This document shows, in pieces, positions 6,654-58,320 of a stretch of 64,000 bases of DNA. The notes under the pieces were generated by a model. It worked only from the letters and a program-made list of their open reading frames with translations. It was not told the DNA's origin and ran no database searches. The DNA is taken from assembly GCF_028583425.1 (NCBI RefSeq), contig NC_072795.1, forward strand, positions 66,726,001 through 66,790,000, given 5' to 3'. Made by a program: the position numbers and the translations under genes. The DNA is from Eublepharis macularius. Its lineage: Eukaryota > Chordata > Lepidosauria > Squamata > Eublepharidae. Numbering within the stretch: the stretch's first letter is position 1; every line of letters starts with the position of its first letter.

Positions 6654-7313
6654 AAGTGGATCTGTATAAAGAGGCTCTGCCTCTGAGACCTCCCAGTCCC
6701 CAGTACGACTGGTGCTGGGCTCTGATGGCTATGGCGATGGGCAACGAGGAAAACCTTGGCACTTCTTCCCCCATGACCACCCTTCCTCCTCATTCCAATC
6801 CTCATGGTGTTATAAGAAGAGCCCTCAGCCGAGGAAACCCAATAAGCTTGGTCCCAGAGCCTGACTGCAGCCCTGAAACTTGAGTTGAGGCAGAGCCCTG
6901 TCCCAACACCAAACATGAGAATTTAAAGGGGGGGGGGAGACAAAAGATGAGCCCCAAGCTGAGGAAACCCAATAAGCTTGATCCCAGAGCCTGACTGGAG
7001 CCCTGAGACTGAGTTGAGGCAGAGCCCTGTCCCAACACCAAAAATGAGAATTTAAAGGGGGGGGGAGACAAAAGATGAGCCCTCAGCTGAGGAAACCCAA
7101 TAAGCTTGATCCCAGAGCCTGACTGCAGCCCTGAGACTGAGTTGAGGCAGAGCCCTATTCCAATACCACAAATGAGAATTTAAAGGGGGGAGAGACAAAA
7201 GGTGAGCCCTCAGCTGAGGAAACCCGATAAGCTTGATCCCAGAGCCTGACTGCAGCTCTGAGACTGGGTTGGGGCACAGCCCTAGGCTAGAGCACCGCCC
7301 CACAATCAAAGAA

Positions 7314-7439
7314 TCATGACACTGAGAGATCTCTGTCTTTTGGTGCTACACCTCTGAAGATGCCAGCCACAGCTGCTGGTGAAACGTCAGGAACTACAAT
7401 GCCAAGACCACGGCAATACAGCCCGGAAAACCCACAACA
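7314..7439 (+). mobile_element. Short Penelope-like (PLE) end fragment with 12-bp target duplication
   Basis: This 126-bp insert is flanked by identical 12-bp copies of 'acaatcaaagaa' (7302-7313 and 7440-7451), so it arrived as its own insertion into the minisatellite. It matches the PLE end sequence at 15084-15228 and 53640-53780 and carries a hammerhead-like core at 7354-7388. Confidence 0.8.
7354..7388 (+). ncRNA. Hammerhead-ribozyme-like motif (family A, PLE end)
   Basis: CTGAAGA (7354-7360) matches the CUGANGA box, GAAA at 7381-7384 matches the second box, and GTC at 7386-7388 is a permitted NUH cleavage triplet. Helix II is GCCAGC pairing with GCTGGT, which includes one G-U wobble relative to the copy at 15137. 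Helix I can form from CCT before the core and AGG after it. Helix III is a single C-G pair. One unpaired base lies between the first box and helix II. Activity is untested. Confidence 0.6.
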
Positions 7440-8126
7440 ACAATCAAAGAAGAGTTGAAATAAAAAAGGAGACACAAGAATGAGCCCTCAGCCGAGGAAA
7501 CTCAATAAGCTTGGTCCCAGAGCCTGACTGCAGCTCTGAGACTGGGTTGGGGTACAGCCCTAGGCTAGCCCACCTCCCCATAATCAAGTAAGAATTGAAA
7601 TTTTTAAAAGGAGACACAGGAATGAGGAAATCCAATAAGCTTGCTCCCACCCAGGGCCTTGCTGCCACACAAGCCACAAGCCTCCCCCTTGCGCAATCCA
7701 AAAAATCTGCGACAAGCACTTCCTCTGAACTGGTAACCAGCTGGAAAGTGAAACCACAGCTCATCACTGGGTGGTATATATACTGCTTGCCCTCATAGAG
7801 AAGAATCGGAGCTCTCTGGTTGGTGGTCAGAGCTGCCTATCAAGATTTTCAGGGATAAGATTGGTATGTTCCAAAGGCAACACAAGGTCTGCTGACATCT
7901 CCCTACATTGCCTAGGGAATTGATTACTTGACACTGAGGTGTCTGGTTTTACAGACTAATGGACCAAACAGCTGGCCAAAGTTCATCACATTCATGAAAA
8001 AAGGCATGTCCCACAACCCGCTGGCTCACAAACGCCAAACCGGCCCGGTCCGTGTTAACTTTTGGTCCATTTTTGGCGCCCGAACTTTTAGTCTGTTTTT
8101 GGTCCAAACTTTTGGTGCTCACCTCT

Positions 8127-12979: not shown

Positions 12980-14880
12980 TGTGTTGCAGTGACGTAGATG
13001 GGATATTGTACATTGATAACAGAAAGGTCATTCATATGTTGACTACAGAGTATAAGGGCTTAAGTACCATATAACAGGTAAAATTCATTTGATGATCATG
13101 CAGATAAGATCTGTATCTCTGCACTAGCAGGAGTGCAAAGAAATGTGACCTGAATCAGAGAGGAATGAAGTACACCAATGGTGTATAATTAGTATCTTCT
13201 CTCACTTGATCTTAGTTATTACTAAAAGTATGCTGAAAGTATGGTGCGTCACTAGTAGTAATGACAGTCTTACATGGCCAAATATCACTGGTGATGCTTT
13301 GCAACATCTGTGTTATTTAGCTGTGTATATAAGACCTTTAAACACCACCAGTGAAAAGTACAATTTTCATGCTGAGGATTATCATAATTGTGGAGTAATG
13401 AGAACCATACAGATCTGCATTTGCAGAACACTCTACGAAGACGATCTGCTGAAAGAAAATGTGGAACAAAGACACATTTTAAAATTTCCTCAACAGTTTA
13501 TATAGTGGCTTTATATCGAAATGTGACAATTGATAAACATAAGATCTGTTACAGGTTTTTAATGGCAATCTTTTGCCACTGTAAAAAAATAGATTTTTAA
13601 AAATTCACCAGGCATTGTAATTTTTAAAACTCATGAAGAAACAGATGTTAGGCATTTAAAGGGATTCCTCCCCCCTACACATACATTTCCTCCCTTTTTT
13701 TTTGTAAAGAGTTGTTCTTACTTTTGAAGAAATGAAAACACATTCAGCTGTTCAGGGAAATTTCCCCAAAAGAGACTAGTGGAGGGTTTCATTACAGTCA
13801 ATCTGTTTTGGTTTATTGGGATTACGGAAGAATGGAATACAGTAAAAGCAAGCAAATAAAATAGCTCTCTAGTCTCTCAGATCCAAGCTTATAGAATTGC
13901 CCACAGAAGAAGAATCCTTTCTGCAAACATGTCAGATACAGGCACTGATGCAGCAACAGTCTTATCCCAGGTGTTCAAAGAGAAATACAGTTGAGACAGT
14001 GGTTAAATGACGTCAGATATAATCAATAAGAAACAATCAGAGACGCCAGAGAAACATTTGGTCCAGCTCCAAAGCTGACCATGTTGAAAATCCAGTATTT
14101 GGGTTCATACGCATAAGCATATCAGCTGGTTCAGCTCAGCAACCAAAACAACCACTTCATGAGTCAGCAAGCTGTCTCGTAGAGGATTTCACTTTGGGAG
14201 CACATAAGGTTACAAAAGAGCTTTGGGTGGTTTATATAAAATCAAATGCAATCAAGAAATATGACTCAAAGGAAGAGAATAACTGGGGCTAGGAAATTCT
14301 ATTCCTGACTGTTGTAATGAATAAGCACAACTCCAAGGACACAGAATACAGGAAAGACAAGAACACTTGTACAAGTAAGTAATGTAATCATTACGCACAC
14401 CTCACATCATTGAGGGTTGAGAAGTTCCAAGAGCGGTAGTTATCCAAGACCTAAGTGTGGCTTCAGCCTTCCATCCTGTGCAGTCTTCCAAAAATGAAAT
14501 GGTCCTGGGAGTTTCTATTCAGCCTATCAAGTAAACCCATGTACACATGGGATTCCCCAGTGAGCCAAATACTGCCCAAGAATCGTTTCAGGTCAGGAAA
14601 ATAATGCACAGCACAATCTGAATTAGACACTGTATGTCTGGGAATTGAGGAGAACTCCCAACTCATAGAGACTCTGACCCAATGTGTACTCCATAATATG
14701 TAAAGAGGCCCAATGTGTGCTGGGCATCTTCATTTTTTAAAAAAATATCAAAAGATTGGAAGCTGGAAAAGGAAATGTCCAAAAAGTGTTAAAGAAATGG
14801 TGGTGCATAGTTGTGAGGCTGGGGAGAAATGGTAGGCTTGTTAGTGTCTGACATTGTCATTCTTTTTTCTTTTTAAAAGG
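12980..14880. other. Non-genic stretch, nothing recognised
   Basis: AT-rich DNA without an identifiable exon or transposon. Confidence 0.4.
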
Positions 14881-14981
14881 TAAAGTGAACAATGTATTGT
14901 CGAAGGCTTTCACGGCCGGAGAACGATGGTTGTTGGGGGTTTTCCGGGCTGTATTGCCGTGGTCTTGGCATTGTAGTTCCT

Positions 14982-15016
14982 GACGTTTCGCCAGCAGCTG
15001 TGGCTGGCATCTTCAG
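14982..15016 (-). ncRNA. Hammerhead-ribozyme-like motif (family A), left arm of palindrome
   Basis: This is the exact reverse complement of the motif at 15137-15171, with the same boxes and helices. On any one transcript across both arms, one copy would be sense and the other its complement, so the two would pair with each other instead of folding separately. Confidence 0.55.
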
Positions 15017-15136
15017 AGGTGTAGCACCAAAAGACAGAGATCTCTCAGTGTCACAGTGTGGAAAAGATGTAGGTCATGACCTACATCTTTTCCACACTGT
15101 GACACTGAGAGATCTCTGTCTTTTGGTGCTACACCT

Positions 15137-15171
15137 CTGAAGATGCCAGCCACAGCTGCTGGCGAAACGTC
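15137..15171 (+). ncRNA. Hammerhead-ribozyme-like motif (family A), right arm of palindrome
   Basis: CTGAAGA at 15137-15143; helix II GCCAGC (15145-15150) pairs perfectly with GCTGGC (15158-15163) around a 7-base loop; GAAA at 15164-15167; C15168-G15169 form a one-pair helix III; the cleavage triplet is GTC 15169-15171. CCT (15134-15136) and AGG (15172-15174) can form helix I, and TTGG (15123-15126) with CCAA (15184-15187) extends it beyond an internal loop. The unpaired T15144 is extra relative to the minimal consensus. Confidence 0.6.
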
Positions 15172-15639
15172 AGGAACTACAATGCCAAGACCACGGCAAT
15201 ACAGCCCGGAAAACCCCCAACAACCATCGTAAAGTGAACACTTCTGAACTCAGGTGTCCAAAGAGGATGTACTCAGCTCCTAAAGAAGAAAAATAGCAAT
15301 AACAAGAATAAAAATGTTTCTAAACTTAACAAAATGGTGCAGGTATTGAGAATGAGATCACAAGCACTATCCAATAGGTGCTCATGGTGTACATAATCAT
15401 TTTCAACATGGCAATTGCAAGAGCAATGGATGCACTAGCATGAGAACAAATTGCATTTCCTCGGTGTCAACATATTGTAGCTTGAATGCTTGAGAACTTT
15501 TGTATCCACCACCTGTGAGAAAAATTCAGAATCCATTGAAACAAATAAGTAATAATTCAGCATTTATAGTGCTAAGAACTATTTTAGAGGCCCTGAGGCT
15601 TCAAATAGACACTGATGGGCCCTGGAGTGTGTCTGCGCT

Positions 15640-19276: not shown

Positions 19277-19457
19277 GGGCTGTTTTCATGTCTCGGCGTA
19301 GCACTAAACTCACAGAACAAGGGAGTCTTCATGGCGTGATTTCTGATGTCATCGCGCCACGAACACGGAATCATGGTGCAATGACATCAGAAATTGCGTC
19401 ATGAAGATGCCCTCATTCCGTGAGTTTAGCGCTATACCGAGATGTGTGAAAATGGTC
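19277..19457. mobile_element. Palindromic MITE, copy 1
   Basis: The two halves are inverted copies: 'gctgttttcatgtctcgg' at the left answers 'ccgagatgtgtgaaaatggt' at the right, and internal 'tcatggcgtgatttctgatg' answers 'catcagaaattgcgtcatga'. A second copy of the family lies 0.85 kb away at 20312-20517. No open frame of note. Confidence 0.75.
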
Positions 19458-20311: not shown

Positions 20312-20517
20312 GGGCTGTTTTCACATGTTGTTAATGTCATGGAACATCGCGCAACACTCACAGAACACTAGCATCTTTATGGCGTGATTTCTGACATCAT
20401 CACGCCATGAAAATGGAATCTTAACGGGGTGACGTCAGAAATCGAGCCATGAAGACGCCATTGTTCCGTGAGTGATGTGCGATGTTGCGCAACATTAATG
20501 ACGTGTGAAAACGGTCA
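20312..20517. mobile_element. Palindromic MITE, copy 2
   Basis: It starts 'gggctgttttcacatgttgt' and ends with the inverted match 'gacgtgtgaaaacggtc'. Inner arms 'tggcgtgatttctgacatca' and 'tgacgtcagaaatcgagcca' pair. Same family as 19277-19457, with arms differing by several substitutions. Confidence 0.75.
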
Positions 20518-21035
20518 GGGAGGGAATTTCCTCCCTAATGTTGTGCTTTAAAATTACGAAGAACTCTCACAGTCTAAGGGCAGCTTGGTAATGGAATGAG
20601 CTGCCTAATTAAACAAATTAAATGTCACCAAAGACCAATTACAAGTCAGTTAAATAAGAGCCAAACAATAGATTTTTATTGGCCTTTTATATTGTAAGAG
20701 TAAAGAGCTGGGCTACAGGGCCACACATCCAAAAGGGGTGGAGAGAAGGAGGCTGGGATCAAATCATAACTCAGCTCTGAGGGTCAATGAATAGTGTTGG
20801 TAAGTCACTGGCTTGGTTCATATATAATAGCCAGACCATGGGCTGGGCGCTCATGCTCAAACCAAGAGCTTCCATATTCCCTCCCTCTCCTCACCCACTT
20901 GGGTTCTCGCTCTCTCTCCCTTTCTCACTAAACCATACTTTGCTGATATACATGCAGCCCCATCATTTGCTAATCAACCACAGGGAAAGAGGGGAAAGAG
21001 ACAAAGCCTGTAGCACATTCCTAACTGAGATCATT
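20518..21035. other. Non-genic stretch, nothing recognised
   Basis: No exon or repeat that I can name. Confidence 0.35.
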
Positions 21036-21540
21036 ATATTGTCAAAGGCTTTCATGGCCGGAAAACGATGGTGGTTGTGGATTTTCTGGACTGTATAACC
21101 GTGGTCTTGGCATTGTAGTTCCTGACATTCCTTTGATATATGGCAAAAACACTTTTCCTGTGGGAGACTGTTTTTCCTTAGTTGTTTGATTTATCCTTGG
21201 TTTAATCGCTCTTCTGATTTCATTTCTGGAGTAGCCATTTGCTTGAAGTGCGTGGTTTAGATGATTAGTTTCCTCGTTGAGAAAGTGTGGTTCACATATC
21301 CGTCTTGCACGGTCTACTAATGTTTTTATTATGCCTCTTTTCTGTTGAGGGTGGTGATTGGAGTTTTTGTGTAAGTACTGATCCGTGTGAGTTGGTTTCC
21401 TGTAGACCTTGTGATTTAACTGAAAGTTTGCTTTGTGGATGACCAAGGTATCTAGAAATGGAAATTTGCCCTCGATTTCTTTCTCCATGGTGAATTGTAT
21501 GTTCAGGTGGATACAATTCATGGTGAATTGTATGTTCAGA
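21036..21540 (-). mobile_element. Penelope-like element, RT C-terminal part fused to its terminal sequence
   Basis: The minus strand encodes 'MEKEIEGKFPFLDTLV', 'YRKPTHTDQYLH', 'SNHHPQQKRGIIKTLVDRA' and 'GYSRNEIRRAIK', the conserved C-terminal stretch of PLE reverse transcriptases. At 'PYIKG' (about 21129-21146) the reading jumps straight to the PLE terminal sequence ('gtcaggaactacaatgcc' to 'gaaagcctttgacaatata'), skipping the GIY-YIG region. A 31-bp tandem duplication ('ctgaacatacaattcaccatg' phrase) precedes the 'MEKEIEG' start. This is a fragment of a retroelement, not a host gene. Confidence 0.8.
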
Positions 21541-21962
21541 TTTTGCCATATATCAAAGGAATCACTGATCAGATGGGAAAGCTTATGAAAAAGCACAACT
21601 TACAAACAGTATTCAGATCCATCAGAAAAATACAACGGATGCTATGATCAGCAAAAGACAGAAGAGACCCCCTCACCTCTGCAGGAGTATACCGCATACC
21701 CTACAGCTGTGGACAAGTTTACATTGGGACCACACAGCGTAGCATCCAGACAAGAATAAAAGAACATGAAAGACACTGCAGACTTGGCCATCCAGAAACA
21801 TCAGCAGTGGCTGAACATAGCCTAACTCAAACAGGACACAGTATCCTATTCCAGGACACTAAAATACTGGACAACACTTCCAACTACTTCGTCAGATTGC
21901 ACAGGGAAGCCATTGAAATTCATAAGCATAAGCACAATTTCAACAGGAAAGAAGATCCAGAG
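21535..21962 (+). mobile_element. Penelope-like element, GIY-YIG endonuclease part
   Basis: The plus strand begins with the same 'ttttgccatatatcaaagga' found in the inverted neighbour, then encodes 'SIRKIQRML', 'GVYRIPYSCGQVYIGTTQRS' (the GIY-YIG signature as GVY...VYIG, from about 21684), 'TRIKEHERHC' and 'SAVAEHSLTQTGHSILFQDT'. One in-frame stop lies after 'IQRML'. It is cut off at 'HNFNRKE' by the repeat at 21957. In PLEs this domain nicks the target DNA for integration. The 5' part of the element lies inverted on its left. Confidence 0.85.
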
Positions 21963-44100: not shown

Positions 44101-47100
44101 GAAGAAGATACGCAGCTCAGTAGCACACACTCTTTAACACAGAAGCAAACTTCCTCACTTATGTATTAATCCTCATAATCCTGTACCCTGCAGCAAGGAT
44201 ATGACAGGGCACTGCCCAATTTAACCCATCAGAATGCAACTGTGCCACCCTGCCACCCTCATCCTGCACCCAAGTCAGCATCTGTTTAACTCCCTCAAAA
44301 AGTTCATGGAGAACTGTGCCCAGCTGCAGGATGTTTCTCAATTTTTAAAGCTGCTCAAGATGAGCAATCATGATCACTCTTGTAGCTTCTCCATCACCCT
44401 GCCTCAATGCAGACAGAGACAGAACATGAACCACATGGCTCTTGTTTTGTGTCTCCCAGATTAGCAGCACAAAAAACCTCTTCAGTTATTTTAGTATCCA
44501 CATCAGCTATTACACTAAGAGCCTTCTATCTGCAGGACACTTACACCTTGATCTAAAGTATGCTCATCTATGAATAGTTCCCACAGATTTCTTCCCAGTA
44601 AATATTAACCATGCGGTCTTAACAACGCTGTCAATTAAGACGCCACACACTACATCTTCCACCTCAGCATCAGGAAATTTAACACATAGTGTACAGGAAG
44701 GAAGCTGCCTTTACTTGATATTCTGATGCCCATGGAAAGTCATGAAGTAGACAGAAAGATCTTCAAATTTGTCTGCCCACTCATCATAGTTTTCCAGCTG
44801 CACCTCCAGGTGTCCCATGGCAAACTGGGTAAGCATGATCTTGGCCAAGCGCACATTGTTGATCTCAAAGCTGCCCCACAAAGTATTCACCCCCTGCATA
44901 CAGAGATCCAAGGCATATTCACTGATGAAAGTTGTCTTCCCACTGCCTGTTGGGCCTACACCATAGAGACAAGGGTAAAATCAACAAGTTTAGAAAATAT
45001 TTTCCAATCTACATGACAACTAATTTAACAGTGAGTTTCCATATGGACTGACAGGCACCTTCTTCTGCAGGGTGTTGAATGCATGCATTGTCAGATAGAC
45101 TGCACAACTGGGTAGGGGTGCCAGACCCCCGGTGGGGGCGGGGGATCCCCTGCCTTTGCCCCCACACCTCACTGCCCACTTACCTCGCCAGCCTCAAAAC
45201 AGGCCCAATCCACCACCGCGGTTTGGGCCACTGTGGAGTGCAGGAGTGTTCCTGCGCTCCACAGCAGCTCCCACCGCGAGCCCCTGCAGAACATGGGCGT
45301 GTTTGGGGGGGGGGGGCCTCTGCGTGATGACGTCACTTCCCGCTTCACGTGCGCACACCCCTCAACAAAGAGGTAAGAGCTGGGCCCCGATCCCCCGCTG
45401 GGAGATTGAGGGGGCCTGGCAACCCTACAATTGGGTGTGGCAGGGGTATGTGCATGCCTTGTATGAGCATGTGCATTCTTCGTTTATTCTATTAGGTAAT
45501 TTAAAATGGGCAAAAATGTGCTCGTCAATAAAACATGCAAGATAACCCCCACCAAATAAAGGTTCCCCAACCCAGTTAGAACAATAAAGCAATCATCATA
45601 ATTATAGGCCAAATGGTATTCGGAGGTCACAGCAAACAAACAGTAACACACACAAAAAAACCCCTGAGCCCAGGATCAACAGAATTACTTAGTACCATGG
45701 TCTCATTCCTGTAAACTGCAAACTCAGAACATTCTGAAGTAAATCAAGTATGCAACAAGACTTACTGTGCAATCCTAAGCCCATTGTACATAGGATTGCA
45801 CAATGGGCTTAAACTTGCATGATTCTGCAAAGGACTGGCAATGGTAACAAGATATTCAACGTGTATGTGGTACTGAAAGTTAATTTAGCAATTTCCAACC
45901 AACATCTCAATAAACCATTAGTTGTAGAAGCCTTGTGGATATTATTGGCAGCATACCTTGAGAACTACACATTACAGAGACAATGCAGAAGAATACATTT
46001 ATAACAGGTCACAATTGACAAAGGAGGTGTGGCCTAAAATACCCCAAGTCCAACAGCAGAGGAACTGAACAATGACATACACACTGCATGGCTTGGGGTG
46101 TTTGAAGCACAATACACTTAATCACCTGTGAAGACTGTGAGCTCCCCTTTTCGGTGGCCCTTCAGGAGTTTGTTCATTTCTGGAAAACGAGCCCATTTGA
46201 CCCCAGCCACCTGTTCCACATTGGCCAGCTCTCCAAACACCTCTTCACGCAGTTGGCGAAATGAAATTATGGACTTATGGCCAGCAGGCAGGGCAGCACG
46301 CAAAATCTTGGTGAGGCTTAAACCACGGGAGAAAGCTTCTAGGGGACGGAGTTGCTGGTCACTAGGACGCACCAAAGAACATCGTTTAGGATTCAGTTTG
46401 CGGGCAAAGAGCTTGGCAGCCTCCCAAGCTCGGAGATCCTCCCCCAGCCAAAGTGTAATCCTTTTAAACTGTTCCAAGTAGGGAAGAAGGGCTGGGGGGA
46501 GGCAGGAAATCCCTCGGGGCAAGGCCAGAGTTGGTAGTCCAGTTGCCTGGTGTAGCGCTAAGGCATCCAGCTCCCGTCCAGTCAGGACCACTTCTGTATC
46601 TCTCCGGCTAATCAACGGCAGTCCAAAGAGATTGTAATAAGCTCCTGGCCGGGGCAGAGTGTTTTCCACATGGCATACCATCTCTCCTTTGCATTCAATC
46701 CCCAGAAGCTTTAAGCCTTTTAGACTAGTGCCCCGGGGGCTGAACCATGGGAAGACCAAGGCCCGAGCTGTCCGCAGATAACGCACCCCAAAACGCTTCA
46801 GTGTGGTATCAGACACAATGGAAATGCCAAATGCCGCCTTGGCTTCCTGTGTCTCCTGTTTATCTAGCAGTTCCCAGAGAGGCAAAGCTCTCTCCCAAAT
46901 GTGGTTGGCATCCTCCCCAGCTTTATCCTTTTGCTCATCAGTCTTCAGTAGTTCACTGAGAGCCACACCATTGTGTTTTAACTCAACACTGGCCTGGAAG
47001 TCTTGCCAGTTACCCTCAACCAGTGTGGCTGTGCAGACAAAGCGACCTGTGGTTTTGTCAATAAACAGGCTGTAGCTATGTCGAACTTGCTGCTTCTCCT

Positions 47101-47332
47101 CCACAAAAATGCTGGGTGCGTGAAGACAACTGTAGCCATCATGAAAAGGGATATTTTGCGCCCTCAAGTACTGTCGTATCTCTGTGACTGACACAGGTGG
47201 GATGGGTCCTTCTGGGGATGGAAGCATTTCCTTCTTGTAGTGTCTGCAAGTACGGCTGCTTGCCAGGACCCATCTACCTCCCAAAGACCAACAATTAGAA
47301 AGAATGCGCAAGGAATACACAGGGAACCACAT
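41126..47332 (-). CDS. TWNK: Twinkle mitochondrial DNA helicase, five coding exons
   Basis: Replicative 5'-3' helicase of mtDNA, a ring-shaped SF4 (T7 gp4/DnaB-type) ATPase in mitochondrial nucleoids. Exons on the minus strand are 47332-46126, 44955-44715, 44093-43986, 42440-42299 and 41434-41126. All introns are GT/AG, and the join gives 668 aa (human about 684). Residues 1-~40 are Arg-rich, as in a mitochondrial presequence. Residues ~45-340 are the primase-like N-terminal half, which in animals lacks zinc-binding and primase activity. Walker A is at ~403-411 (G-PTGSGKTT, the first Gly split by intron 1); Walker B is '[11 protein letters not shown]' at ~500-510. '[10 protein letters not shown]' and 'KNRFDGDVG' (arginine-finger region) follow. 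A start 39 bp upstream is open, but 47332 ('[11 protein letters not shown]') aligns with the mammalian start. The gene is head to head with MRPL43. The last ~30 residues are Gly/Lys-rich and variable. Confidence 0.97.
42000..42085 (+). repeat. SINE tail in TWNK intron 4 region
   Basis: 'aacctcacagggctgttgtg', 'aggataaaattgaggc', then 'gaagtaaataaataaatatg' matches the 3' part of the CORE-like SINE. It lies in the TWNK intron between exons at 42299 and 41434, in the opposite orientation to the gene. Confidence 0.6.
43701..43810. repeat. Exact 57-bp tandem duplication in TWNK intron 3
   Basis: The unit beginning 'gtttgcaagcttatggcctg' at 43701 is repeated at 43758, identical for 53 bases before diverging at 43811. 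The lack of substitutions points to a recent local duplication or to polymorphism. Confidence 0.9.
45110..45435. repeat. GC-rich dispersed repeat in TWNK intron 1
   Basis: It begins 'ggtaggggtgccagaccccc' and ends 'gggggcctggcaaccctac', imperfect inverted ends. The interior has 'tttgggccactgtgg', 'atgacgtcacttcccg' and a poly-G run (45305-45317). Its resemblance to 15640-15815 suggests a mobile family. The open frames in it are composition-driven. Confidence 0.5.
45767..45810. repeat. Short inverted repeat, part of the ~85-bp palindrome family
   Basis: 'gtgcaatcctaagcccattg' is mirrored at once by 'taggattgcacaatgggctt'. It is a shortened relative of 25820-25909, located in TWNK intron 1. 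Confidence 0.6.
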
Positions 47333-48252
47333 TTCTTCTACACAAGAGGCAGAAAGGTGCATGCTTTGCATATTTTTTTCAATATGCTATACAAGCTGAG
47401 CCCACCACCTTGACATACAAGCAGTTTCTAATGAATAGCTCCCACAGCCACCACAGCCTGACATAGCTCCATCCCACTTTCCCAGCCATTCCTTTCTCCT
47501 CCTTTACTGAACACTCTCCCGGCTGAGGCGCAACCTCCGATCCTGGTCCTTAAGCATCTTCTCCTCCCCCACCCCCACCCCCACCCCCAGCACCCCAAAC
47601 CAGGACCGTCTCACACAGCGCCCGACCCGTTCTCCGTTCGCAGCACAGGTTTTTCCACGCAAACGCCTGTTAATAAACAGGTCACCTTCCTAGGACCCCC
47701 CGCCCCAAGGCCCTGTCCCTCAGCCCCTCTAGCAAACTGCACCCGCCGAGGCTCAGCCTCTCCCGTGGCCCCCCTACACCGCTTGGCCAGCTCCGCCCAC
47801 GAGTCCTTCTCAATCCCCCACGTGCAGCCGGACAGAGCGCGCCATTGCTTTGACCCGGGAACCACAACAGTGGCACGTCACTTCTGGAGGGGCTAAGTAG
47901 GCGGGGCGACCTGGCATTCAGAAAAGGTAAGAAGAGGGCGGACCCACCGTCAGCGTCCTTAGGAGTATTTATGGTCTAATCCTGAACTTTCTCCCCTATT
48001 TAAATTCTCATGTAAAGCATAAAAGGGGCTTCATCACAGAGACTTAAAACGGCGTTTTGCCGCGCAATAGAGAATTGTAGTTAAGAGCGGCGGTCAATTT
48101 CTAGCGGAAGTTCCGGTTTTGAGGCCTAATCTTTTGCTATCTCTATGGAAACAGCCCTCGCCGGGCGTCTAGCTTCGTGAGGGGCTTCCGGCGTTGTGAC
48201 TGACGGGAGAGGAGGAGTCCGCGGTGATCCTGTTGCCCTTCTGCGGTGTGCC
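47333..48252. promoter_or_regulatory. Shared CpG-rich promoter region between TWNK and MRPL43
   Basis: The two start codons are 920 bp apart and divergent. From about 47520 the sequence is CpG-rich and there is no TATA box at a fixed distance. A palindromic pair of ETS-type sites, CGGAAGTTCCGG, is at 48105-48116, and another, CTTCCGGC, at 48185-48192. ETS-family factor GABP/NRF-2 is known to drive many nuclear genes for mitochondrial proteins. An E-box-like CACGTG is at about 47820-47825 and a CRE-like CACGTCAC at about 47873-47880. Function is inferred from position and motifs. Confidence 0.7.
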
Positions 48253-51200: not shown

Positions 51201-53394
51201 GGGGTTGTTACCTTGAGTGAACTGTGTTCCCTTTGTATTGCTGCAATTCAGTGCTTTTATAAGGAATGAGTTAGAACAAGAAATGAAAGTGTATTGGCTT
51301 GAAATGCAGATGTGTGAATAGAGTGGATTAATTAGTGATATGACAATGAAAATTTGTGCTTTGAATTAAGATATGAAATTAGAAACTAATTTTAAATCAT
51401 AGAACCAGTGATTAAAAATTAAATAAGTGATGTCAGCTATTTTATAAAATAAACATTTAATGACTTTACCCACCCTGAATGTAGACAAAATGCATTTTAC
51501 TGAGACCCCTGCAGCTGAAATTCTTACAGTGGTGAAAAACTTTGCATTTACACTGCATCTGTAGCTACAAAACACGTTCATGCTCTTAAATAACGATAGT
51601 GAAACATCAAGTTTCCCAGTGGGTAAATGCATGTTCCAGTTACTTAACATATGCAATGTTATTCAAATCCCTATTCAGGAACAATAGTATGAGATAATTA
51701 ATTAGGCTGAGAGAATAGCAATTTTTCTGCAGCTTTCTAAAAATATTGGGATGCAAATACACTCCAAAAGTGCTGCAGAGGAGCAATTACAAAGACTTCA
51801 CAACTACAGACTAACACAGCTAACTTCCCTGGATCAAAAAGCTTTTGGCAGTGTCTTTCACCAAAGTCTCCTGAGTAGATTTAGCAATCCTTTGATAAAA
51901 GGCCTTCTTATAGATGGGTTACTGGATAAAGAACCAGAAACCATTGATAAGAGTAAACAGTTACTGACATGGAAGATACACTTCTCTATATTGATGCTAT
52001 TTAACTTGCTGACAAACAGTCTAGAGTTAGGGTGGGAAGAGACTTTACCAAGTATATGGATAACAACAAATTATTCAGGATAGTGAAAACTAAAGCATTT
52101 CAAAGAATCTCTCCAAACTTGGTGAATGGGCAAAAAAATGGCAAGTAGTAAATGGCAATGTAAATTGAACATTTGGGCAAAAATATTCTAACTTCATATA
52201 TTCACCAATAGTGTTTGAACTGGCAATAACTAACAAGGAACAAGCTCTTAGGGTCATAGTGGGAAGCTCAGTAAGTTTATCAATGCTGTGTTTGACAATC
52301 ATGAAAAGGGTAAATTCCATTTTAGGAGTGTTAGGAATGATTGGAAATAAAGAGGCCATTATCATAATGTCACCATAATGACAAGGCTGTATAATTAATA
52401 ATAATAAAGTGCCATCAAGTCACAACTGACTTGTGACAGCTCCATGAAGTTATACTTCATGAGATTTTCAAGGCAAGAGATGAGCAGAGGTGGTTTGTCA
52501 TTGCACTTCCCTGCATAGGAACCCTAGTCTTCCTTGGTTGACTTCTATCTAAGTACTGATTATGACTGACCCTGGGTAGCTTCCAAGCACTGCTTTATTC
52601 TTAATTCTATCAGCTTTGGTTTCCTTTTCAGTATAATTTGTTTTTTAATATCCATATGGGGCTTTTTATCTTGTTCTAGAGAGTATGTCGAAGAAAAGGT
52701 GGTGGATTTTGCCAGGCAAAACCCTCAGATTGTATTTTATGTGTGTCCAAAGAAGATCAGGATCCCCACAGTAGTGGCTGAATATTGTGAGTATGAAAAA
52801 CTACTGATTATTAGGAGAGATGTGGTAGAGAATTGTGTGAAATTTATTTGTAATAATGTAGTAGGCATGTGTACTTTCAAGAGCTTCCTTCCTTTTCACA
52901 AAGCACTAGCATTGGATGCATGCACTGTTTGCTAGAAGAATCATATTGTGCAATTGTAAAGTAGACCTTAATTTATAGCATTAATGAATTTAAAAATCAA
53001 GGAGAGAAATTTAAAGATTAATTTTGTTTTACTTTGGACCTCGCCAACAACTAAAAATCTTGGCAGGAATGAGTGATATACAAGTTCCTAGAGAACTGTT
53101 TCTGCTAGATTGAATGAGAGTAGAGTTTTGGTTTCATCCATGTATTCTCTTCTCTTTTGCAAAGTGAATGGGACTGTGGAAGAGAAATTTTTAACCAGCA
53201 AGACATCTGATGAGATTGCAGAGATCATCCACAAGTTGGCCAACCAATCCGGCCTAGAGATCATACGCATCCGAAAACCCTTCCATACAGATAACCCTAG
53301 TATACAAGGCCAGTGGCATCCCTTCACAAACAAGCCTAGTGTGCTCAGCGTGCAAGAAATTGGTCAACAGTGTCTTTCATCCCCACAAAAATAA
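48253..53394 (+). CDS. MRPL43: Mitochondrial large ribosomal subunit protein mL43, three coding exons
   Basis: Structural protein of the 39S mitoribosomal subunit, in the L51/S25/CI-B8 family (thioredoxin-like fold). Exons: 48253-48383, 52680-52786, 53165-53394. Donors GTAAGT and GTGAGT, acceptors TCTAG and CAAAG; phases join to 155 aa. It starts '[20 protein letters not shown]', nearly as in human, and contains '[15 protein letters not shown]', 'TVVAEYLNG' and the highly conserved '[20 protein letters not shown]'. The last ~15 residues ('[16 protein letters not shown]') are variable, as in isoforms of this gene. A poly(A)-signal-like AATAAA overlaps the stop codon (53390-53395). Intron 1 (4.3 kb) holds several repeats. 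Head to head with TWNK and tail to tail with SEMA4G. Confidence 0.96.
50440..50562 (+). repeat. Squamate-type SINE fragment in MRPL43 intron 1
   Basis: Reads 'ggtaaaggtagtcccctgtg', 'caagcactgagtcattactg', 'acccgtggagggacgtcgca', 'ttttacggggtggtttgcca', 'ttgccttccccaatcatcta'. This is the 5' two-thirds of a widespread reptile SINE, truncated before its tRNA-like half. Confidence 0.65.
51790..51835 (+). repeat. Fragment of family B repeat end
   Basis: 'aactacagactaacacagct' followed by 'aacttccctggatc' matches the terminal phrase of the unit at 21957-22225. The hammerhead-like part is absent. Confidence 0.5.
51836..52385 (+). mobile_element. Old LINE remnant (CR1/L2-like RT)
   Basis: Across frames the plus strand reads '[13 protein letters not shown]', '[20 protein letters not shown]', '[20 protein letters not shown]' and '[20 protein letters not shown]'. 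This follows the CR1/L2 RT thumb pattern ('WAxKWQMxFNxxKC', 'ELxxTxxEKDLGVIVD', 'KANxMLGxIxKG'). Very old and full of changes; in MRPL43 intron 1. Confidence 0.5.
52405..52600 (-). repeat. 5S-rRNA-headed SINE with BovB-like tail
   Basis: On the minus strand the head 'cttggaagctacccagggtc' and 'cagtacttagatagaagtc' aligns with the internal-promoter part of 5S rRNA ('cggaagctaagcagggtc', 'gtacttggatgggagacc'). The body has 'ccaaggaagactagggttcc', 'tgacaaaccacctctgctca' and 'cttgccttgaaaatct', and the tail 'gtgacttgatggcac' is BovB-like. It lies 80 bp upstream of MRPL43 exon 2, antisense to it. Not a functional 5S gene. Confidence 0.8.
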
Positions 53395-53604: not shown

Positions 53605-53785
53605 TGACACCTTCCCGAGTAGATATAAATTACCTGCTAACATTTTCTCCACACTTTGACACAGTGAATTCTGTCTTTTGGTGCAACACCTCTGAAGATG
53701 CCAGTCACAGCTGCTGGCGAAACGTCAGGAACTACAGTGCCAAGACCACAACCATACAGCCCGGAAAATCTACGACTACTTTGGG
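53605..53785 (+). mobile_element. PLE end fragment just downstream of MRPL43
   Basis: 'gagtagatataaattacctg', 'ctaacattttctccacactt', the hammerhead-like core (53692-53726) and 'cagcccggaaaatctacgac' match the PLE end units at 7314 and 14891. It begins about 210 bp after the MRPL43 stop and is in the same orientation, so read-through MRPL43 transcripts could include it. No clear target duplication was found. Confidence 0.75.
53692..53726 (+). ncRNA. Hammerhead-ribozyme-like motif (family A) in the MRPL43 3' flank
   Basis: CTGAAGA 53692-53698; GCCAGT (53700-53705) pairs with GCTGGC (53713-53718) through one U-G wobble; GAAA 53719-53722; one-pair helix III (C53723-G53724); cleavage triplet GTC 53724-53726; CCT/AGG for helix I. 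Relative to 15137 the single helix II change keeps pairing. Confidence 0.6.
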
Positions 53786-55110: not shown

Positions 55111-56790
55111 GCTTGAGCCCGCTGCACCCGTTCCCGCAGCTGGCTCATGTACATCTGGACCGGGGGGGGGCAGGGTCACTGGCGCGGTGTCCCCATTGCT
55201 CCGCCAAGCGTGAGAGCAGCCCTCGTGGCTTGCGCCCATACAGTAGTTCGAACGGGCTGAAACCGGTTGAGGCCTGTGGGGTCTCCCGTAGGGTGAATAT
55301 CAGGGCGTCGATATACAGGTCCCACTGGTGGGGCTTGTCGTGCGCCATCTTCAGGGCCTCCTTGATGGTTTGGTTCAGACACTTGGCTAACCCATCCGTC
55401 TGGGGGTGGGTATGTGGAGGTGAACACTTGTTGGATCCCCAAGTTCTGGCACAGTTGGCGCATGGCGGTTGCGTGGAAGGGCTCTCCACGATCAGTCACG
55501 ATCTCCAATGGCAGCCCCACCATCGCAAACAGCCGGGACAATGCACGCAACATCTCCGGGGTCTGTATTGTTTTAAGAGGGATGACCTCAGGGAACCGGG
55601 TGGCATAGTCCACAATTACCAGGGCAAAGCGGAAGCCGCGGGGTATGCATGGCAGTGGGCCTATAAAGTCCATGGCAAACGGTGTCCCTATCATGGGCAT
55701 TGGGGCCAGAGGGGCCCTTAGCAGATGCCGCGCTGCCACCCGCTGGCAGGTGGGGCACAAGGGGCAGTGGGCCTTGACCTCCGCATTCATCGAGGGCCAA
55801 AAGAATCACTCCAGGATCTTAGTTAGTGTCTTGTGGTGCCCCAGGTGCCCTGCCCATACATGCTCATGAGCCAGGCAAAGGACTTCGTCTCGGAAGGACG
55901 CAGGCATCAGCAGTTGCTGGATCTCTCCTTGGCCATTTAGGGCACGGGCCACGCGGATCCACACCTCTCCCTGCTTCTCAATGCAGGGGAGGCGTTGGGC
56001 CCTCTGCTTGTCCTGCACCTGCCCCTCTTCCACAGCCACTGACTTCTGCAGGCATTGCAAGGAGTTGTCAGCCTCTTGGGCGGTGGGGAAGGCAGGGTCT
56101 GAGGACGTGGGCTACGGTGCGCTCAGCGGGGTCGCCTCCTCCAGCCCGCGACTGGGCACCTTGCCCGGGTCATCCTCTCCTTCCTCCTGCAGGGCAGCAG
56201 CCCTCTGCAGGGGAGCCAGCTTGTCCAATGCCGCCCAGAGTAGGCGCGTGAACGCCAGGCCCTCCCATCCCCGCAGCACAGGGTATGGCAGGTCTGGTAC
56301 TTTGGCCACCTCCACCCAGAAGGAGGCTCCCAGGTACTCCAGCGTCACCCATACCAGCGGCCAGTTCTGGGCGTGGCCCGACCTGCATGGAACCATTGCC
56401 CATCAGTGCACTGGCAGCTTGGCGGGGAGGAGGTGCACCCGTACCAACGAAACAGAGCTCCTCGAGTCAAGGAGAGCTGCTAGCTTATGTTGGTTCAGTG
56501 CCACGGAGGCAAACAGGCCGGGCATTCCTTTGCACAACGGGCTGGTGGGCAGAGCAGCTTTCCTGGCTACTGGCAGGCTGTTTGCCCCTCCTGGAAGCTT
56601 CTCCAGCAGCGCAAGTTCTCGGGCTAACTCCACCTGACCTTCCCGGTGTAAAGCTGCCAGCTTCTGCCACAGCACTTCCTGGTGCGCTGCTATCCACTGG
56701 CCCCACTGGGCGAGGTCTCCTGCGGCAGGCGGGATTGCAGCTTGGGACCACGGCGGCAGAACAAAGCTCCCTGTATGGGCCACCAACTTG

Positions 56791-58320
56791 TTAGGGCTTG
56801 CTGCGGCCGCTGCTGGGTGAGGCGCTGGCATGCCTGGCCCTGACGTCAAAGGGGTGTCAAGGATACTGCAGGACCCTGCTCTGTGGAAGGAGGGGTGGTA
56901 TACATCACCCAGACTCCCTCTCAGTCCACTCGCTGGCCTGCTCAACCTGACCCAGAGCCTCGCTACAAGTGACATCTTACACTCGAACGGCACTTGATCA
57001 TTTTCGCAAGTCTTTCTGGGAATTGAAGTCCCTCTCCCCCACCCCTTTTCTTTCTGTTCCTTCCCCTTTCTGTTAGAATGCCTGCCTGAAGAGACGGAGA
57101 AAGCCTCCGATAGCAGCTTTTTCAAATCGTCTTGCTGGGGGGTGGGGGATGCTCTGGAGAAAGCTGACATGTCGGTGAAGTCCTAGTGTCCTTTCAGTGA
57201 TCTTTGGGGGTGGGCAGCTGCAACTTTGCTAATCATCTTGCTGGGGGGGAGATGCTCTGGAGAAAGCTGAGAAAGTCGCAGCTGCCTACCCCCAAAGATC
57301 ATTGAGAGCAGGCTTGTGACTGGAGGAGCGATTTGCAAAAGCAGGCTTTCTCCGTCTCTTCAGGCAGCCATTCTAACAGAGAGAGGAAGGAACAGAAAGA
57401 AAAGGGGTGGGGGAGAGGGACTTCAATTCCCAGAAAGACTTGCGAAAATGATCAAGTGCTGTGTGTGTGTAAGATGTCACTTGTAGCAAGGCTCCCAGTC
57501 TTCCCCCTTGCTCCCCTCCATCTCCTTCATCCACCTTCCTCCTTGTCTTTTCTTGCTCGCTCCACTCTGCCACTCCTACTCAACCCACCCCGCCCTGTGG
57601 GTGGGCTTCCCTTTTATCCCTTCAGTTTAGCCATGCTCCACCTGCCAACCATGCCCTCCTGCTGCCTTCTACCCATGGACCTAGCTGGCCTAGGCAGCTG
57701 CACCTGTGCTTGTTTTGCTGGAAGCACTGAGCTGATCCACCTGTGCCTCATTGGCTGGCTATCCAGCCTCCCTGGCAGAGCTGACGGCTGAAGGCAGGCA
57801 CAGTGGAGCCTCCTTGGCTGGCTGTCCATCTCCTCCCATAGAATGCCTCAGGCAGTTCCACCTGGAGCTGCTTAGCTCCTAGCATCCCCTGGGCTAGGTT
57901 ATTGCTTTCCAGCTCGGCTACAGGCTGGGGCATAGCTTTGAGCTGCTGAGGCTGCTTCTCCTCCCTGGTTGGTAAGGCTTCAGTTTGGCCTGCTGCTAGC
58001 TGCCTGTCCCCGCTGTCTTGGCTCTCTCCATCTGCTCTAGCCCCCTCTGGGTTGCCCCCAGTCTCCCTACATGGCCCTCTGGACTCCCACTGGAGGGTGG
58101 GACTGGCTGGCCTCCACCTGCCCCTTCTAACCCTCTGAGGCTTGGGTGTCTCTTCCCTTCCCCCTGTGGCCGGCTGGGGCTTGGGTGTCTCTTCCCTTCC
58201 CCCTGTGGCTGGCTGGGTCTGGGTCTGGCTGTCTGCTGAGGCAGCTGGGCCACTGTCTCCCGGGGGTCTCCCATCCTCTTCTCCAGGTAAGTCCAGGGGC
58301 TGGGCTGTAGACCCCGGACA
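56791..58320 (-). repeat. 5' LTR of the Gypsy-type fossil, with a nested element
   Basis: On the minus strand it begins TGTCCGGGG at 58320 and ends CCCTAACA at 56791. Net of the nested 538-bp foldback element it is about 1 kb. A TGG-initiated stretch follows its inner end, where a tRNA primer site is expected. GC-rich with a short internal duplication near 58140-58215. Confidence 0.7.
56956..57493. mobile_element. Foldback DNA element (538 bp) nested in the LTR
   Basis: The ends 'agcctcgctacaagtgacat' and, on the other strand, 'agccttgctacaagtgacat' are long inverted repeats. They cover about 180 bp each and include 'gatcattttcgcaagtcttt', 'ctgggaattgaagtccctct' and 'gaagagacggagaaagcct'. 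Direct repeats CCCAG flank it (56951-56955, 57494-57498). The LTR sequence is continuous if it is removed. Superfamily not assigned; the TSD length does not fit hAT. Confidence 0.8.

Follow-up and report, generated by a model that had tools for sequence, protein, structure and literature searches.

A perfect palindrome in the Eublepharis macularius genome as the probable product of two-sided priming by a Penelope-like element

How an exactly symmetrical DNA segment came to be inserted into a chromosome is the question raised by a locus on contig NC_072795.1 of Eublepharis macularius (assembly GCF_028583425.1). We analyzed the 64,000-nucleotide stretch from 66,726,001 to 66,790,000 of this contig, hereafter the window, and give positions relative to its first letter. 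As the initial annotation had reported, positions 14923-15076 and 15077-15230 form a perfect inverted repeat, with arms of 154 nt that are 100% complementary and a spacer of 0 nt; self-comparison of the window returned the corresponding 308-bp self reverse-complement match. Chance cannot account for 154 matched pairs. The whole insert, at 14892-15228, is a 337-bp Penelope-like element (PLE) insert (Table 1). The outermost 2 nt of the arms (14923-14924 and 15229-15230) pair only by virtue of the right target duplication, which starts with GT, which leaves 15077-15228 as the element-derived portion of the right arm. A target duplication of 11 bp had been described. The duplication was found, but its length had to be corrected: in a related insert, L048, the arm continues into the ORF and carries C, not T, at ORF +120, so that the tail is best ended at +119 and the duplication in the window is thus 12 bp. 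Its presence on both sides of the insert bears out the proposal that the palindrome was inserted as a unit.

Table 1. Features of the palindromic insert and of other PLE copies in the window
Feature	Position	Strand	Remarks
Left target-site duplication GTAAAGTGAACA	14880..14891	.	12 bp
Right target-site duplication GTAAAGTGAACA	15229..15240	.	12 bp
Tail-bearing (T) arm	14892..15076	-	cDNA from ORF +119, antisense on + strand, ends at palindrome centre
Tail	14892..14924	-	33 nt, ORF +87 to +119, missing from other arm
Palindrome centre TCATGA	15074..15079	.	cDNA ends overlap by AT (2 nt); identical junction in L048
No-tail (N) arm	15077..15228	+	pLTR and ORF start, ends at ORF +86
PLE ORF start (MPATAAGETSGTTMPRPRQ...)	15143..15228	+	
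Putative hammerhead ribozyme core (CUGAAGA...GAAAC-GUC)	15137..15171	+	Pattern; predicted cut after ORF +29; place as in Anolis PLE (PMC11167929)
Putative hammerhead core, mirror copy in other arm	14982..15016	-	Mirror coordinates
Related PLE copy, N end only	7317..7445	+	Single-sided, flanked by AATCAAAGAA (by eye)
Older PLE copy (C), inverted parts	21029..21955	.	Tail end and RT part -; GIY-YIG endonuclease part + from 21541
Older PLE copy, no-tail end	53640..53779	+	

Outward from the centre, each arm consists of a PLE pLTR followed by the start of the ORF, with ATG at 15143 (+) and 15010 (-), and the left arm exceeds the right one by 33 nt of PLE sequence. The assignment to PLEs is based on homology to a PLE pLTR and ORF start in an alignment with the Anolis element PAc, on the target-site duplication and on the tail at the 3' end of one of the two inverted pLTRs. 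The PLE ends and their head-to-head order, as proposed by the initial annotation, are supported. A hammerhead in the pLTR is predicted from its core-motif pattern and its PAc-like position. Rfam did not report a hammerhead family in the window, the insert or one arm: the window gave 0 matches at gathering scores, and the insert and the single arm gave sub-gathering matches only, mostly to microRNA hairpins, as a palindrome will give. The predicted folding energy was -326 kcal/mol for a transcript of the whole insert versus -45 for one arm with its tail; by this prediction, the hammerheads would be unlikely to fold in a whole-insert transcript, in which the arms would pair together. A composition scan for coding exons gave none that could be named near the insert. 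The identity of the arms had been taken to imply either a very recent insertion or continuing conversion. This is more than needed, as arms without differences over about 150 nt bound their divergence only at about 0.6-1%.

The palindrome had also been regarded as a rare structure, and in this respect the genome tells otherwise. Searching the whole genome (2.24 Gb) with the palindrome gave 566 first-look candidates, of which 40 were scored in a ranking by similarity to the query. By our tally, these best 40 comprised 27 places matching both arms and 13 matching one arm, the latter apparently picked by the tail end and a similar flank. The places were fetched with their flanks, and the 13 one-arm places and two others were fetched again with longer flanks. 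All 13 one-arm places turned out to be longer PLE inserts in head-to-head arrangement, in which a second end faces outward, and a short non-autonomous RNA as the source, which we had considered, was dropped for this reason. Target duplications lying no more than 8 nt from the arm ends were detected by script at 41 inserts, namely 24 short ones (314-397 bp, the window insert included) and 17 others (174 bp to 7.7 kb), among which were L048, inserts that happened to lie in the fetched DNA and a complicated case of nesting (L052:7246-9631). In 41/41, one end was a T end (+113 to +120) and the other an N end (+80 to +88), and the two orientations on the + strand were found 21 (TN) and 20 (NT) times. 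The duplication measured at least 10 bp in 40/41 inserts (mode 12), the remaining one being 7 bp (L032); as a control, mismatched flank pairs gave duplications of at least 10 bp in 0/1640 cases. A foldback or MITE-type DNA transposon, which would have fixed terminal inverted repeats recognized by a transposase, was rejected on the same set, since the termini differ by the tail in 41/41 inserts and the arms are retroelement sequence.

A second sample was chosen by the no-tail end plus flank. Here, 40 of 153 candidates were scored, and 18 places were taken in table order from the 39 non-window places, L025 being passed over as already in the set and 20 being left; three places running off the fetched end were extended. 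Fourteen of the 18 were T/N, none was N/N and in 4 no partner was found. The duplications of the T/N inserts were found by the script in 11 cases (12-14 bp) and by eye in three (L071/L081, 10 bp; L076/L082, 12 bp; L079/L083, 7-9 bp), and the raw arm ends at 154-158 and 183-188 in unit coordinates correspond, via the duplications, to about +85 to +87 and +114 to +120. Among the four places without a partner, L065 has an 11-bp duplication and L074 a by-eye duplication behind a 12-nt filler; for L064 and L077, a duplication was not found. The search for other inverted-dimer PLE inserts recommended by the initial annotation was thus rewarded: 55 head-to-head inserts with a duplication were dissected across the genome, and 55/55 (41 + 14) have one T and one N end and none has like ends. 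This count refers to one genome and to inserts drawn from capped lists ranked by similarity; it includes L032 and omits L020/L062 (T/T) and L024 (T/N), both without a duplication found. End positions, pairing of ends, duplications and junctions were all read directly from the assembled DNA.

Since missed hairpin adapters can yield perfect palindromes, an assembly or library artefact had to be weighed. A long-read adapter artefact would mirror the flanks too. The flanks of the window insert are unmirrored and carry a duplication, which disfavours such an artefact; moreover, its two arms do not end at the same site, and the assembly contains many comparable inserts in other flanking DNA. We therefore regard the probability of an artefact as negligible.

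The target sites show a symmetric motif. When the 24 short inserts are placed with the T side left, A is found at positions -4, -3 and -2 in 17, 15 and 15 of 24, and T at +2, +3 and +4 in 17, 12 and 12 of 24, the mirror image of the left motif, in flanks that are 65% A+T overall. Because the motif is symmetric, both cuts look like the work of a single enzyme. This is in agreement with the AT-rich cutting of both strands by the Anolis PLE in vitro (PMC11167929).

We thus propose, with a probability of roughly 0.7, that a single PLE integration by two-sided target-primed reverse transcription, with a T and an N start and a head-to-head join, gave rise to the palindrome. The PLE endonuclease would cut the two target strands at sites some 12 bp from each other, which frees a pair of 3' ends, and the RT would extend both on PLE RNA, from a distal start at about ORF +119 (giving the tail) and from a proximal start at about ORF +86 (giving no tail). 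The two outward-facing cDNAs would then be joined head to head via short microhomology or small fillers. In the window insert, both cDNAs would have ended at one common base, sense ATGACC, which is probably the 5' terminus of the RNA, with AT as their overlap; such equal stops would yield a perfect palindrome that lacks the remainder of the ORF. We infer priming by both target strands and a single RNA serving both. Two-sided priming explains the simple rule seen in the genome, namely one tail and one no-tail end, duplications of mostly 12-14 bp and a symmetric motif. Counting against it are single-sided inserts, the T/T insert L020/L062 and the T/N insert L024, both without a duplication found, and the over-frequency of near-equal stops. 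L020/L062 (C4:31063522-31063900) is the sole insert seen with two tail ends and has an 11-nt spacer at its centre. Single-sided inserts exist at window 7317-7445 (N only) and L028:120-200 (T only), with duplications read by eye, and at the N-sampled L065. At L068:1621-1952, the T cDNA seems to be only about 8 nt long (by eye), and so short a tail-side cDNA points to a two-sided origin for some of the inserts that appear single-sided.

The inner ends bear on whether the two cDNAs depend on each other. Their lengths vary both ways, T being longer in L049, L055 and L059 and N in L048, L050, L053, L056, L060 and others, and since they vary freely, neither cDNA need copy the other. In 16 of the 17 other inserts, the junction is an overlap of 1-9 nt (9 inserts) or a filler of 2-22 nt (7 inserts), some of it seemingly copied from beside the junction. 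Near-equal stops (≤20 nt) are found in 5/15 inserts, a number reached in 3 of 100,000 permutations, and in 9/14 N-sampled inserts the stops lie within 2 nt of each other. Such stops are commoner than independent cDNAs should give, and therefore something couples the two: either one RNA was copied twice to its 5' end, or a fold-back cDNA met the other cDNA. We had also considered that a leading RT blocks a trailing one, so that the N cDNA reaches further than the T cDNA; this fitted 12/15 inserts of the first set but 2/9 near-equal N-sampled inserts and was dropped.

Fold-back could in principle do more than shape the inner ends. According to such a scheme, only one strand primes, the cDNA folds over at its 3' end to serve as its own template, and the resulting hairpin is attached to the opposite side. 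The over-representation of equal or near-equal inner ends speaks for it, as do several near-equal centres that by eye can be interpreted as hairpins with loops only a few nt long (L051, L069, L073 and L075) and L072, which seems to hold a short fold-back tract. Nevertheless, fold-back leaves unexplained why the copied arm should invariably terminate at the second RT start, the centre of the window palindrome has no spacer, and self-copying cannot give sequence present in the N arm only in some inserts and the reverse in others. As the sole route, fold-back is contradicted by these unequal inserts of both kinds, and we consider it unlikely; it may contribute to the inner ends and may help to form palindromes. 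Of the origin suggested by the initial annotation, target-primed reverse transcription is retained, and fold-back is kept as a possible source of equal inner ends; alone, it accounts neither for the one-of-each outer ends nor for inserts with a longer no-tail cDNA.

The centres of the palindromes raise a further alternative, in which the palindrome is itself a mobile unit that arose from one founder and spread by recopying of a palindromic RNA, the TCATGA centre being inherited. Indeed, at least 13 copies, including the window one, have this centre in common among the matches listed, which were ranked by likeness to the centre; L018 and L034 have two variants in common in addition to the centre; and L026, L027 and L033 have nearly one asymmetric junction, as L028 and L031 have another. 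Yet the TCATGA copies comprise at least four variant sets, each present on both arms, which would require repeated homogenization of the arms, and sense ATGACC ends are also paired with a different partner end (L026, L027, L028, L031, L033 and L083, the last with a T cDNA spanning the whole unit). Furthermore, a palindromic RNA would lack ORF +120 to +172, and in vitro the Anolis template RNA had to include the initial 172 nt of its ORF (PMC11167929). A source RNA must extend beyond what these inserts contain, a point that also counts against two-sided priming. We find a mobile palindrome quite improbable and prefer two-sided priming, with the ATGACC base as the likely 5' end of the RNA. Also in favour of two-sided priming, the same base was found at pLTR position 141 on both arms in 40/40 inserts tabulated by hand (40 of the 41, L052:7246-9631 being omitted); this agreement is confounded with age, the variant occurring in more diverged copies. 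The arm variants common to L018 and L034 are 16C>T and 42G>A, and L034 has an internal duplication; one of these palindromes possibly descends from the other.

At somewhat less than even odds, two-sided priming could be the standard mode of PLE integration: an asymmetric two-primer reaction in which an RT dimer uses the distal and the proximal start, one on each strand of a staggered cut. If so, head-to-head pLTRs, one-sided tails and palindromes would be normal products rather than accidents, the head-to-head join would accomplish second-strand attachment, and single-sided inserts would represent failures of one side.

Longer copies of the family hold an ORF. In the window, the GIY-YIG part of copy C matched Pfam at E 0.00049 and 20.8 bits, below the cut-off of 22.6, and its RT part had no Pfam match. 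The RT (-) and endonuclease (+) parts of this copy (21029-21955) point away from each other and have about 22 nt of element sequence in common; on its tail side, the sequence jumps from the ORF start, near the predicted site of hammerhead cleavage, to the RT region. For the copy at 53640..53779, a target duplication was not established. The single-sided copy at 7317-7445 seemingly interrupts a tandem array with a 128-bp unit (6814-7587). Two imperfect inverted repeats were also observed, one of about 540 bp at 56955-57494 (72% alike by self-match, ends like CTACAAGTGACATCTTACAC), which resembles a MITE or some other kind of non-autonomous DNA transposon, and one of 152 bp at 19291-19442 (78% alike), with relatives at 20346-20473. 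An integrase core domain (Pfam rve) at 55176-55805 (-) is probably the remnant of an LTR retrotransposon. Twinkle, the mitochondrial helicase, is encoded in the window at 46118-47386, and part of mitochondrial ribosomal protein L43 lies within 52570-52935. When prokaryote and viral contigs were scanned for relatives by exact pattern, 0 matches were obtained, as one would expect of an element from a vertebrate.

Both-strand priming is known from twin-primed LINE-1 inversions, in which both target strands prime and the inverted part normally does not repeat the other part. The inserts described here are similar in the priming we propose but differ in that both parts start at the 3' side of the element and overlap. 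A LINE-1-type twin-primed inversion was accordingly rejected for the window insert, whose arms repeat the same 152 nt instead of adjacent, non-repeated parts.

A close parallel is the PLE of Anolis carolinensis (PAc, Poseidon). According to the 2024 report (PMC11167929), its RT starts in vitro mostly at ORF +111-118 and also at a neighbouring site, the "tail" found in the genome corresponds to the sequence lying between these starts, and the enzyme cuts and extends both target strands. The gecko element probably resembles it in all these respects, and it does so in ORF register and in the place of the putative hammerhead; indeed, the ORF part of the arm aligns without net shift to the printed Anolis template RNA. 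Judged by this alignment, the left end of the window insert is within 1 nt of the first published Anolis start, and the right end falls at a distance of one tail from it, the position expected of the second start. Unlike our analysis of the gecko genome, that study, as far as its accessible part goes, did not pair the two ends of single inserts. A strict pairing of one T with one N end is likewise unstated in the accessible parts of PMC11167929, PMC3846280, PMC8969392 and PMC12910113; older work on Penelope of D. virilis and a 2021 PLE survey may say more.

Penelope elements are already known to have inverted pLTRs, one of which may carry a tail, as well as palindromic junctions (PMC3846280; also mentioned in PMC8969392). 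In PMC3846280, head-to-head arrays with palindromic junctions were ascribed, in a 2013 proposal for rotifer elements, to self-priming on an antisense PLE transcript. By itself, this predicts neither outer ends on two RT starts nor the one-of-each rule, and we consider it very improbable for the gecko inserts, for which two-sided priming offers a common origin of inverted pLTRs, one-sided tails and palindromes. Pen2a of Adineta vaga and others share with our inserts the head-to-head pLTRs, an optional 31-bp tail on one of them, palindromes at inverted junctions and, in the cases quoted in PMC3846280, target duplications of 8-10 bp. They differ in that the cases described mostly hold an ORF or captured DNA, whereas many gecko inserts are ORF-less and some perfectly palindromic, and in that the tail is optional there but present on exactly one end in 55/55 dissected inserts with a duplication here. 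The window insert is thus a variant of the known inverted-pLTR PLE structure.
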